This document shows positions 3,198 to 6,970 of a stretch of DNA of 52,588 nucleotides, piece by piece. Numbering within the stretch: position 1 is the stretch's first letter; each line of letters begins with the position of its first letter. Source of the DNA: a virus; IMG/VR virus record IMGVR_UViG_3300009428_000012, positions 1 to 52,588 of that record; one strand, 5' to 3'. Position numbers and translations under genes: made by a program. Under the pieces are notes generated by a model. It saw nothing but the letters and a program-made list of their open reading frames with translations. It had not been told where the DNA came from and ran no database searches.

Positions 3198-4973
3198 TTA
3201 GAAGCCCATGGCGTTTGATAGATTACCAGGCATTCCTAATGTCGTGTTTTGATTTCTCACATTAACGTTATTTACAGGTGCAATAACAGGTGCGGCAACA
3301 CTCACTTGAGAGCCTTTAGAATCTGCTCTGCCCATGGCGTCTGCTTCTACAGCAAGAGCGGTTATCGCATCTCCCCTACTAGAGGCTGCGCCCGGCAACA
3401 ATTCACCTGTCTTTGCGTCTAATCCTGCATATGTATACACTGAGTTTGGTATCGCTTTCGCAACGAGGCGGGAGGGATCATACCATGCTCTATCTGAGTC
3501 AGGATCAGGCAATATCATTCGTAAAATACTTTTGATGAAGTTTTCACCCATCTCACCTGCACCCTTTGCGATGCCCATTACAGTACCACCTGGATCAGTA
3601 AACATTTTCTTAAAGAAGTTTTTAACTGCTTCCCATGCAGGATCGACTAATGCAGTAAGACTGAAGCTTTTAAGTGTCTCAGCGATACCGTCAAAACCTA
3701 GTTTCTCCATCAACCAAGCAGGGAGCTTGATAAAGATTAGATCGATTGCTTCAGTGAAGCCTTTGATAATTCCTTTAATACCACCTTCTATACCAGCTTT
3801 AAGCTTATCGCCAAAACTACCATCTTCGCTAGTGAAGCCTTGATAGAATCCAGTAACAAAGTCGATGATGCTTAACAGTACTTGCGTGAATGGTCTCATA
3901 ACTGTCTTAAGAATGATCTCGAAAGGCGCAAGTAGAGGCTTAAGAAACCCGCCAACTTTGCCTAAGAATCCTAATATACCGCCACCGTCAATGGCACCGA
4001 ATGCTGTCTTCACGCTATCTGTTATACCAGCTAAGCCTACAGGCATAGTTAATTTAATTCTAGGTATTCCATCGAAGAACTTTCCGACACCATCCTTAAT
4101 ACTAGTAAGTTTATCTCCAAATGCTGTAGCTGGTCCAGCAAACTTCTCAGTCATTCCCAACTTGACTCCATCGAAGAATCCATTGATACTGTTCTTAATC
4201 GCAGTTATCTTTCCACCGAATGCTTCTATTGGGCTTGCAAACTTCTCAGTCATTCCTAGCTTAATTCCATCAAAGAATGTGTTAGCGGCTGTTTTAATGC
4301 CAGTTATCTTTCCACCAAATGCTTCGGCAGCCATAGTCCATTTCGTGTTTATACTAGCCTGTATGCTGTCAAAGAATGCGTTAGTTCCAGTTTTGATTAA
4401 ATCTATTTTAGGACCAACAGATATGCTGAGTTTAGTTTTGGTAAAATCATACGGCATACCCTTAGCATCTACAAATGATATTTTAGGTATATCGGGGAAT
4501 CTAGGTTTAAAGGCTTTAACTTTTTTCCCGAACTCTTCAATGCGAATGCCCATGTAAACAATCTCATCAGTAAATTTTGTCCAACCCATGTTGAAAGTTT
4601 TGAACTTTCCTGGTAGCGCCATAGCTTTAATAGCCGCATCGAATCCAGTCAAAGATGCGGCAATTGCCACAATTCCAGATCCTAAACCCATCATTCCCAT
4701 ACCCATACCGCCGGATCCACCATCTCCGCCATCCATACCTTTACTAGCAACTGATTCTGTTACAGCTTGCTTAGTAATTTTAGCCGTTGCTTTTGATTGA
4801 GCTAGATTGGCAGCCATTTGAGCTTTTCTTGCGGCATTAGCCGTCAGGTCAAAAGTAGCTTGTAGTATCTTAGTCTGGTTATCCATAGAATCACGCATAG
4901 ACTTCAGATGTGGTGCTATCTGGTCTGTAGTGTCACTTGATAAATTGACTGTGGGCAGAGACGTGGTTGCCAT
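3198..4973 (-). CDS. tape-measure-like tail protein (gp29 positional equivalent)
   Basis: 591 residues, almost the same as T4 gp29 (590), the tail-length ruler. It begins with a helical heptad-rich region (about 20-75), then a Gly/Met-rich linker (80-105) and a hydrophobic segment. Three near-perfect 33-residue repeats plus a partial fourth follow (189-304: K-(I/L)-T-x-I-K ... FFDGIKLGMTEKF ... AFGG). The rest is a hydrophobic helical region (330-420) and a C-terminal domain. It follows the gp26/gp51 chaperone pair, the usual place for a tape measure in long-tailed phages. AGGATAG precedes the ATG. I could not align it residue by residue with gp29, so the call rests on length, repeats and position. 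The alternative is another internal tail or hub protein. Confidence 0.6.
   Translation of the reverse strand: MATTSLPTVNLSSDTTDQIAPHLKSMRDSMDNQTKILQATFDLTANAARKAQMAANLAQSKATAKITKQAVTESVASKGMDGGDGGSGGMGMGMMGLGSGIVAIAASLTGFDAAIKAMALPGKFKTFNMGWTKFTDEIVYMGIRIEEFGKKVKAFKPRFPDIPKISFVDAKGMPYDFTKTKLSISVGPKIDLIKTGTNAFFDSIQASINTKWTMAAEAFGGKITGIKTAANTFFDGIKLGMTEKFASPIEAFGGKITAIKNSINGFFDGVKLGMTEKFAGPATAFGDKLTSIKDGVGKFFDGIPRIKLTMPVGLAGITDSVKTAFGAIDGGGILGFLGKVGGFLKPLLAPFEIILKTVMRPFTQVLLSIIDFVTGFYQGFTSEDGSFGDKLKAGIEGGIKGIIKGFTEAIDLIFIKLPAWLMEKLGFDGIAETLKSFSLTALVDPAWEAVKNFFKKMFTDPGGTVMGIAKGAGEMGENFIKSILRMILPDPDSDRAWYDPSRLVAKAIPNSVYTYAGLDAKTGELLPGAASSRGDAITALAVEADAMGRADSKGSQVSVAAPVIAPVNNVNVRNQNTTLGMPGNLSNAMGF
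4062..4409 (-). repeat. 99-bp in-frame tandem repeats within the tape-measure-like gene
   Basis: Codons 189-221, 222-254 and 255-287, then a partial copy to about 304, repeat with a strict 33-residue (99-base) period. FFD(G/S)I and AF(G)G recur at fixed positions. The second and third copies are the most alike (GMTEKFA is shared), which suggests recent duplication. Confidence 0.85.
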
Positions 4974-4983
4974 TTAAACTATC

Positions 4984-5310
4984 CTATTGAGACTTATTTG
5001 AGTAAGCTTGAGTTGTGTAAAATGCCGCAACGATAGCCGCTACTGACACAAAGTACGTTGGTGCGATATCGCCCAATGTTTTAGATGCCTGATCTAGTCC
5101 CATAAGAACGGCAAGTACTACTGCAAACGGGTATAAGAGCATGCCGAATAGTGCAAACCAAGCCATGTTACGCTGTGCGTCTTCACGCTTATCAGCATTT
5201 TCGATTTGTATCATTCGTTCGTGTTTAGATAGCTCTTCGTTTGATACGATTCCATCACCGTCTAGATCAGCGTCATTTAACATGCTGTCTACTGGTAGTT
5301 TTTTAGCCAT
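4984..5310 (-). CDS. EF-hand membrane protein between gp51 and the tape measure
   Basis: 108 residues. Residues 15-26 (DLDGDGIVSNEE) are a canonical 12-residue EF-hand loop with Asp at 1, 3 and 5, Gly at 6, Val at 8 and Glu at 12, so calcium binding is likely. A basic/acidic linker follows, then two hydrophobic segments (about 48-70 and 80-101) predicted to span a membrane. The ribosome-binding site AGGAGAAAG overlaps the stop of the upstream gp51 gene. The gene is locked between the tail chaperones and the tape measure, so a virion or tail-assembly role is more likely than a free host-membrane role. Delivery into the host membrane at injection is a guess. No specific family is named. Confidence 0.72.
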   Translation of the reverse strand: MAKKLPVDSMLNDADLDGDGIVSNEELSKHERMIQIENADKREDAQRNMAWFALFGMLLYPFAVVLAVLMGLDQASKTLGDIAPTYFVSVAAIVAAFYTTQAYSNKSQ

Positions 5311-5319
5311 GTCTTTCTC

Positions 5320-5487
5320 CTAGCTTTGTTGTTGATTCGTTGTTTCTATAAAGTCCACTAACATATCCATATAAAGATCACGCTCATACGGTATTAAGTT
5401 TTCTATATCACTTATACTATATTTATGATGTTGAGCCACTGCGAAGATATTTTTATAGTATGCCATAAGGTTATTATGGCTCAACAT
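5320..5487 (-). CDS. 51: baseplate hub assembly catalyst gp51-like (55-residue gene)
   Basis: A short gene below the usual size cut-off. It encodes 55 residues beginning MLSHNNLMAYYKNIFAVAQH, with a core SISDIENLIPYERDLYMDML. The pattern of an aromatic helix, then E-N-x-(I/M)-P-(Y/F)-E-R-x-x-Y-x-x-(M/L)-L is that of short gp51-type tail-assembly chaperones in T4-like marine phages. In T4, gp51 is a catalyst of hub assembly not found in the virion. Its ATG overlaps the gp26 stop as TAATG, and no Shine-Dalgarno sits at a normal distance from it. It may be reached by -1 frameshifting from gp26 (see frameshift site), by termination-reinitiation, or both. Confidence 0.78.
   Translation of the reverse strand: MLSHNNLMAYYKNIFAVAQHHKYSISDIENLIPYERDLYMDMLVDFIETTNQQQS
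5420..5427 (-). promoter_or_regulatory. late-promoter-like box CATAAATA (weak)
   Basis: The minus strand reads CATAAATA, one mismatch from the T4 late consensus TATAAATA, inside gp51 and about 110 bases before the EF-hand gene. It could give extra late transcription of the EF-hand and tape-measure genes, or be chance. Confidence 0.25.
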
Positions 5488-5514
5488 TATGTAAAAAAAG
5501 AGTCCATACCCTCC
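5462..5514 (-). other. candidate programmed -1 frameshift site joining gp26 to gp51
   Basis: On the minus strand the end of gp26 reads GAC TCT TTT TTT ACA TAA. The T TTT TTT heptamer (5499-5493) is in the slippery X XXY YYZ phase. A slip of -1 reads on through TAC ATA ATG into gp51. GGAGGG (5514-5509) sits 9 bases upstream, like the stimulatory Shine-Dalgarno of dnaX. A perfect 7-bp hairpin GCCATAA-loop-TTATGGC (5480-5462) starts 12 bases downstream. The product would be a gp26-gp51 fusion of 293 residues. This parallels the lambda G/GT tail chaperones. Confidence 0.65.
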
Positions 5515-6200
5515 ACAACAAATTCTTTATCCTTATCATTCTTATCTTTATACTGGATCGTGTGCGTAAGCTTAGGCATAGTGTCAAAGAATGTCTTAAT
5601 ATCTCCAATAACAGCGCCATTAAATCCATCTACGAAATCACTAATTTCAACTTTACTGAAGTCTTCTAGCTTGAATATCTCATCAGTATTATTATCCACC
5701 AATATATCAATACATCCAGTCATAGTCGAGAACATTTGATCGGTCTGAGAAAGATTATCATCAACCTCTTGTAACATTTTAACTTCGGATAAAGTTGGAT
5801 ATTTCATCATAATATGGTATTGATCATTCAGTACAATTTTCTTGTTATGACCCTCAGGAGTCTTTACGCTAATGTCATTTATGTCAATTTCGACATTCAC
5901 ATTCTCTTCAGTTTCTTCGTCTACGAATCCAAACTTCATCATATTGTCTACTGACTTGCCACGAATCATTAGAATAAGATACTCTAAATCAAATGTAGCA
6001 AGCTTATCTACGTCAACGCCTGTTGTACAGTTGTTAATGATCTGTTTTACTGCTAGAAAGATTTGATTCTGATCTTCTGATTCTTGTGCTATCAGAAGAA
6101 TTTTCTCTTCTTTAACCGTAAATGGTCGAAATTTTGCCTTTTTGTCTGTAGACGGAACAGTAACCTCAAATAAAGGTTGGTCAATTTTAGGTAAACCCAT
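5487..6200 (-). CDS. 26: baseplate hub subunit / tail-assembly chaperone gp26
   Basis: 237 residues (T4 gp26: 208). It matches the T4 baseplate family: a beta-rich N-terminus with FRPFTVKEEKILLIAQES, then LPxFDLEYLILMIRGKSV-type helix (ATFDLEYLILMIRGKS), a beta segment, and MMKYPTLSEV. The FxVKEEKxLL and DxEYL...iR.kS signatures are the main support. In T4, gp26 acts in hub assembly; in position and pairing with gp51 it corresponds to the upstream tail-assembly chaperone of other long-tailed phages. AGGAG precedes the ATG. The 3' end carries the slippery T7 run and overlaps the gp51 start. Confidence 0.85.
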   Translation of the reverse strand: MGLPKIDQPLFEVTVPSTDKKAKFRPFTVKEEKILLIAQESEDQNQIFLAVKQIINNCTTGVDVDKLATFDLEYLILMIRGKSVDNMMKFGFVDEETEENVNVEIDINDISVKTPEGHNKKIVLNDQYHIMMKYPTLSEVKMLQEVDDNLSQTDQMFSTMTGCIDILVDNNTDEIFKLEDFSKVEISDFVDGFNGAVIGDIKTFFDTMPKLTHTIQYKDKNDKDKEFVVEGMDSFFT

Positions 6201-6229: not shown

Positions 6230-6970
6230 TTAAAAAGATTTCAAAATAGTAGAGACATTAGATGCTTGGTTAATAGCATCTTGAATGCTTCTAGGTCGCT
6301 TCAATCCTCGAATCGCTTGTGTGAAAGTATTTATTGTAGATAGATAGCTTAATAATCCATTAACTCCACCTCTGCCATCTATCATAGAACCTGTGTCTGC
6401 GCCTGTAACTTTAATTTCATCGTATGTGAATCCTACAGGCAGTGTCATTATCTCAGTGTTTCCCCAAGATTCTGTTACATTACCCACTTGAACTGGGTAT
6501 GCGCCACTCATCGTGTATGTGTATGTGATACTTTCTGACGCATAAGAATATACTACAACCTCTACAGTAGAGGCATAATCAGACTTGTATCCTAATTCGT
6601 ACGGTAGTTGTCCGTCAACTGCTGACATTGGTCCACCAGACGTGTCGTAGTTAATCTGCAACTGCATCCATCTGTGAAAGAATTTCATAATTTCGAAATT
6701 GCTATCTACCATAAAAACTGTAGGCAGAATAGGAAATAACATAGAAGTTGGTCGTCTAGTAGTCGCACCAAATCCTTGAACTTGATAATCAGTTGTTACT
6801 ACGTCAAACTCTGGAAGTGTAACAGTTCGGCAGAAGAAGCGTAGATCAGGAATAATACCCTCATCGTTTCTTAGGGATTTAGGGGGTGTTATATTGACCA
6901 TAAACAGGTTATCTTTAGCTAAACCGTGTCTACTAATAGTTGAATTAAATTCTTGAATGTTAAACGCCAT
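6230..6970 (-). CDS. 54: tail-tube-like baseplate protein, gp54-type tube initiator
   Basis: 246 residues. The opening FNIQEFNSTISRHGLAKDNLFMVNI resembles the (x)F-x-S-x-x-x-x-x-G-(L/F)-A-R-x-N-x-F-x-V start shared by gp19, gp48 and gp54 tube-fold proteins. The pattern continues with a T-LP-(E/G) segment (CRTVTLPEFDV) and a central W/F-x-R-W-M-x-x-I motif (FFHRWMQLQINYD). In T4, gp54 polymerises on gp48 and starts the gp19 tube. gp48 is encoded just across the divergent promoter at 8516, so gp54 is the best candidate by elimination and fold. It is shorter than T4 gp54 (320), and a second tube-like protein cannot be excluded. AGGATAAGG precedes the ATG. Confidence 0.58.
   Translation of the reverse strand: MAFNIQEFNSTISRHGLAKDNLFMVNITPPKSLRNDEGIIPDLRFFCRTVTLPEFDVVTTDYQVQGFGATTRRPTSMLFPILPTVFMVDSNFEIMKFFHRWMQLQINYDTSGGPMSAVDGQLPYELGYKSDYASTVEVVVYSYASESITYTYTMSGAYPVQVGNVTESWGNTEIMTLPVGFTYDEIKVTGADTGSMIDGRGGVNGLLSYLSTINTFTQAIRGLKRPRSIQDAINQASNVSTILKSF

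Follow-up and report, generated by a model that had tools for sequence, protein, structure and literature searches.

Gene 26 and the gp51 reading frame that follows it in this T4-like phage very probably constitute a single tail-assembly-chaperone locus of the lambda G/GT kind, with a short form and a frameshifted long form. The two frames lie on the minus strand of the window, the whole stretch of 52,588 nucleotides of viral DNA that was analysed, and all window positions given below refer to that strand (Table 1). Gene 26 ends with ...GAG GGT ATG GAC TCT TTT TTT ACA TAA, in which a T TTT TTT heptamer stands in slippery phase (TCT TTT TTT ACA TAA) with one 0-frame codon between it and the stop TAA (5489-5487). 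From the heptamer the -1 frame is open across the junction into gp51 and translates as FFYIMLSHNNLMAYYKN... The first-pass annotation had read from the letters the in-phase heptamer two codons before the gp26 stop, a GGAGGG 9 bases upstream of it and a stop-free passage through the junction; all of these are present, and the count of two codons is correct when made from the second TTT.

Layout of the locus

The first reading frame belongs to the T4 gp26 family (PF12322 and phrog_150) and the -1 frame to the gp51 C-terminal family (phrog_634, 5.5e-22 over 5326-5505). By tblastn, which matched 559 phage records, the gp51 homology reaches up to the frameshift site. A search of NCBIfam gave no useful match, and a search for an intrinsic terminator between the two genes found none. 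The order of genes is tail tube, gp26, gp51, an ORF of 108 amino acids and tape measure, so that the pair sits between tail tube and tape measure with one small ORF separating gp51 from the latter. The lambda order V, G, T, H is the same arrangement. Together with the T4 comparison given below, this gene order supports the earlier proposal that gp26 and gp51 form a G/GT-type pair.

Table 1. Features at and around the gene 26-gp51 junction, in window positions
Feature	Position	Strand	Details
gene 26 (putative TAC-N, short chaperone isoform)	5487..6200	-	237 aa; phrog_150 1.4e-59; PF12322 T4_baseplate 4.6e-53
gp51 frame (putative C-terminal extension; TAC-NC when fused)	5323..5493	-	~57 codons after heptamer; -1 frameshift entry; -1 translation
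slippery heptamer T TTT TTT	5493..5499	-	sequence; T TTT TTT/C/G in 146/156 distinct junctions
SD-like GGAGGG, upstream	5509..5514	-	ends 9 nt before heptamer
conserved downstream stem (predicted), 5' arm ATGTTGAGCCA	5477..5487	-	5 nt after heptamer; fold and covariation
conserved downstream stem (predicted), 3' arm TGGCTCAACAT	5428..5438	-	fold and covariation
local 7-bp hairpin GCCATAA/TTATGGC	5462..5480	-	competes with conserved stem, much weaker
gp51-frame ATG overlapping gene 26 stop (TAATG)	5485..5487	-	possible reinitiation start; not conserved
tail tube protein, upstream of gene 26	6230..6970	-	phrog_45 7e-34; PF23849 2.9e-11
tape measure protein, downstream	3198..4973	-	phrog_58 8.8e-7

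The 108-aa ORF that fills the gap between gp51 and tape measure (4984-5310) contains an EF-hand-like loop, DADLDGDGIVSNEEL, and two hydrophobic stretches, MAWFALFGMLLYPFAVV and APTYFVSVAAIVAAFY. Small ORFs recognisably like it occupy the same position in L004, L086 (phiN3), L095 (Melnitz-3) and other T4-like phages.

An AlphaFold2 model of gp26, built with 45 sequences, had a mean pLDDT of 84. When 350,542 PDB chains were ranked by fold, the HK97 tail assembly chaperone 2ob9 came first with a weak, non-significant match (E 0.31, TM 0.19-0.35), which gives a model-based hint of a chaperone relationship. The named structure matches in BFVD were mostly other baseplate hub (gp26-type) proteins, and when the gp26 alignment was run as a profile against the PDB sequences, no relevant match emerged.

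The slip site and the -1 frame in related phages

The junction was compared across 265 related loci from IMG/VR and GenBank phages, which were gathered by scans with single proteins and comprise 156 distinct junctions; scans with a Vibrio gp26 and a Rhizobium gp26 contributed only 2 loci and 1 locus, respectively. An open -1 frame follows gene 26 in all 265 loci, extending over at least 33 codons in every one and at least 53 codons in 263, and it encodes gp51 in all except that of Stenotrophomonas phage IME-SM1. The distinct junctions carry T TTT TTT (57), T TTT TTC (87), T TTT TTG (2) or no heptamer in the expected place (10). Such an alignment had been set beforehand in the first-pass annotation as the test on which its reading could fail; 146 of the 156 junctions retain both the heptamer in phase and gp51 in the -1 frame, with a run of six to eight T's. 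This conservation extends over Kyanoviridae, Vibrio and Aeromonas Straboviridae, Emdodecavirus, pf16, Pootjesviridae, a Variovorax phage and Melnitz-3. The heptamer is usually separated from the stop by one 0-frame codon, and by eight codons in 11 junctions.

The ten junctions without a heptamer are those of Ackermannviridae and IME-SM1. The Ackermannviridae (L094, L265-L279) read GAG ATT TTC ATT TAA, and the -1 frame after their gp26 is still gp51-like; they possibly use a single-codon slip or another recoding signal. At the IME-SM1 junction (L092, 3196-3310), GAG GAT TTT TCG GCT, the run has one T fewer than is usual in the family, and gp51-like sequence is read in the other frame with respect to gp26, which may reflect either a sequencing error or a different solution.

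Two ATGs might start a free gp51, the one that overlaps the gene 26 stop and another at 5466-5464, and neither has a Shine-Dalgarno sequence at normal spacing, as had been pointed out from the sequence of this phage. Overlapping stop and start codons are common in phage operons, and TAATG or TAGTG is found at the junction in this phage and its close relatives; because the ATG overlaps the stop, some free gp51 could arise by reinitiation in this phage. It is nevertheless highly unlikely that gp51 is simply a separate protein made by termination and reinitiation at TAATG, with an incidental T-run. Such a mode of expression has no need of an in-phase heptamer, yet the heptamer is kept, while the overlapping codon is ATG at only 26 of the 146 distinct heptamer junctions and often specifies Ser, Thr, Ala or Ile. 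Moreover, at 39 of the 146 no ATG, GTG or TTG precedes the conserved YYxxxF motif in the gp51 frame, and the full-length gp51 domain could therefore be made there only as a fusion, barring an unusual start codon. The first start codon in the gp51 frame of L063, whose junction is identical to that of L058, comes 129 nt in. In GenBank, gp51 is unannotated in ACG-2014i (NC_027132), ACG-2014d (KJ019048) and the Aeromonas phages 65.2 and Ah1 (KY290955, MG250483), and the annotated gp51 begins inside the domain in P-HM2 (NC_015284) and syn9 (DQ149023), as expected if there is no usable start near the junction.

Homopolymer runs can also cause slippage of RNA polymerase, in which case the T7 run would give rise to mRNAs carrying an extra U. 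This we find very hard to credit, as the run consists of only six T's across most of the family and of seven in this phage's clade, and is never longer than eight (6, 7 and 8 T's in 89, 56 and 1 of the heptamer junctions). The run furthermore keeps to the X XXY YYZ phase, and both the SD-like element and the conserved stem, 5-6 nt past the heptamer, suit slippage by the ribosome.

Codon choice at the site was analysed in a set of 45 distinct close relatives. Of these, 44 spell the Phe pair TTT TTT, whereas TTT accounts for 68% of the Phe codons in the rest of gp26 (binomial p 5e-14), and the preceding codon (Ser or Thr) ends in T in all 45, where ~40% would be expected; the p-values of these codon tests are nominal only, because the sequences are interrelated. 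These preferences, which go beyond codon usage, bear on the idea that the T-run and the -1 overlap merely mirror tight packing of the genes and a conserved end of the gp26 protein, SFF, with no fusion made. A motif E-G-x-x-[ST]-F-F is indeed conserved there at the protein level, but many relatives have a gp51 without a start codon and the downstream stem covaries, so that we grant this idea next to no probability.

Conservation of the GGAGGG had been named as a further check on ribosomal frameshifting. An SD-like motif precedes 139 of the 146 heptamers, in 134 cases at a distance of 8-10 nt, and among the close relatives its Glu codon is GAG in 29 of 39 cases against 31% elsewhere (Fisher p 5e-8, nominal for the same reason). 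Part of this conservation is not related to the RNA, because the motif falls within the conserved protein motif E-G, which also fixes its position.

The predicted RNA stem downstream of the heptamer

The minimum-free-energy fold of the sequence after the heptamer is a 12-bp stem (-17.5 kcal/mol, z -3.1, none of 200 shuffles as good), 11 pairs of which join the two arms listed in Table 1. The first-pass annotation had proposed a perfect 7-bp hairpin as the stimulatory structure. This hairpin exists and starts 12 nt after the heptamer, but the stable fold is the 12-bp stem, which uses the same bases; the two structures are mutually exclusive, with a middle-pair probability above 0.999 for the long stem versus 0.001 for the hairpin, and energies of -14.1 kcal/mol for the bare 11-bp stem versus -8.2 kcal/mol for the hairpin. 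Its competition with the conserved stem, its far lower stability and its lack of general conservation led us to reject the hairpin as a stimulator, and the longer covarying stem fits this role instead.

In the 45-sequence alignment, 89.5% of the cells pair, compared to 26-45% in slid versions, and 31 cells are changed on both sides, compared to 14 in shuffles, none of 500 reaching the observed number. For one stem pair, 22 sequences have T-A and 18 have C-G; on the gp26 tree each side of this pair changes 7 times and the pair state only 9 times. Pairs are formed in 443 of 495 cases, versus 356+-8 under synonymous shuffling with the gp51 protein held fixed and 422+-3 (maximum 431 in 1000) under a stricter permutation that preserves columns and residues, the phylogenetic tree standing outside the model of both nulls. 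Part of the stem conservation could come from the conserved LSH and AQHH residues, though the synonymous nulls are exceeded. The predicted fold includes the stem in 40 of the 45 sequences; the remainder fold otherwise, some of them into local hairpins or in a shifted register.

Relatives of P-SSM2 have a different stem, AGTATGGCTCA/TGAGTCATACT, at the same spacing of 5-6 nt, and in another group, again at 5-6 nt, a stem GCCTCT/AGAGGC exchanges with GCCTGT/ACAGGC. A simple stem search found none for some groups (e.g. L191, L198, L216). Only a few relatives have a local hairpin in place of the long stem: in L025/L027 and L058 the long stem is weakened by a change of S-H to G-Y, and a local hairpin of 8-9 bp, TGCTAGGTT/AACCTAGCA, is predicted at the same spacing. 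Judged by folding and covariation, the predicted 11-12-bp stem is the likely stimulator of the frameshift. No description of it was found in the literature searched, and the covarying stem may be new to the literature.

From these features we infer slippage and its rate, its stimulation by the SD-like site and the stem, and the chaperone role of the products, as follows. Most ribosomes would halt at the gene 26 UAA and release the short form, TAC-N (gp26). A minority would pause on U UUU UUU, with the SD-like GGAGGG behind them and the 11-12-bp RNA stem 5 nt ahead, whereupon both Phe-tRNAs would slip back by one base and reading would continue as F-F-Y-I-M-L-S-H... to give gp26-gp51 (TAC-NC), the long form. 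Acting together, both products would then chaperone the tape measure and the tail tube during tail assembly.

Comparison with T4 and with other frameshifted genes

The tripartite signal resembles that of E. coli dnaX, which likewise combines an upstream SD, a heptamer and a downstream stem; the dnaX heptamer is, however, A AAA AAG, and its shift leads to a shortened product rather than an extended one. The lambda heptamer is G GGA AAG, compared to T TTT TTT here. The present locus shares with lambda G/GT its position between tube and tape measure genes, a short form and a -1 extended form, and a slippery heptamer close to where the first ORF ends (Xu, Hendrix & Duda 2004), and differs from it in its likely stimulators, the SD-like site and the stem. 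No sequence relation between lambda G/GT-type chaperones and gp26/gp51 was detected. The tail assembly chaperones of Vandenendeviridae and Andersonviridae (PMC12846349) also belong to contractile tails, use a -1 shift at a T-rich site (GTTTTT) and have a C-terminal extension that is mis-annotated as a separate or absent gene, whereas the phage lineage and the slippery sequence are others and the available part of that paper reports no stem.

In T4 and RB49, genes 26 and 51 are separate and divergent, on opposite strands, in contrast to the single overlapping frameshifted pair of this phage, and because its two genes are so placed T4 does not use the frameshift. T4 gp26 and T4 gp51 each match PF12322 across the whole profile, and T4 gp51 also matches phrog_634. 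By these matches T4 gp51 seems to be a ready-made genomic fusion, with the short and the long form apparently encoded by two separate genes in T4. The T4 state would be derived from the frameshifted one, because the latter is widespread.

In Virology 2022, 566:9-15, Vladimirov, Gautam and Davidson reportedly identified the tail assembly chaperones of T4-like phages, whose genes we take, from the T4 comparison, to be 26 and 51. As far as the available parts of the sources go, those proteins are, as here, tail assembly chaperones with short and long forms; Vladimirov et al. 2022 is cited for T4-like phages that, rather than frameshifting, have one short gene and one long, fused gene (PMC10885494) and, in a 2025 paper, for poly-T slippery sequences in the TAC-N genes of T4-like phages (PMC12846349). 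The frameshifted gp26/gp51, which had at first seemed undescribed for T4, was thus already reported for T4-like phages, and within the same parts of these sources the frameshifted chaperone found here is of a kind already known in T4-like phages. No further description of a gp26/gp51 frameshift was found in the literature searched.

A broader proposal, which we regard as evenly poised, is that the SD-like site, the T TTT TTY heptamer and the covarying stem 5-6 nt further on, which has been remodelled in different ways in three or more clades, together make up an undescribed and probably ancestral regulatory RNA of T4-like phages, that free gp51 is absent in most of them, and that the two-gene state of T4 is derived, gene duplication and fusion having taken the place of the frameshift.

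The slip site and the downstream RNA stem are deeply conserved in T4-like phages, and they provide a defined, covarying RNA signal that is open to standard reporter tests. The evidence indicates that in many T4-like phages gp51, named 'baseplate hub assembly catalyst' from T4 genetics and shortened or omitted in many annotations, is the C-terminal extension that frameshifting adds to a chaperone. In evolutionary terms, one frameshifted gene in cyanophages and in Vibrio, Aeromonas and rhizobial phages would correspond to two separate genes in T4.
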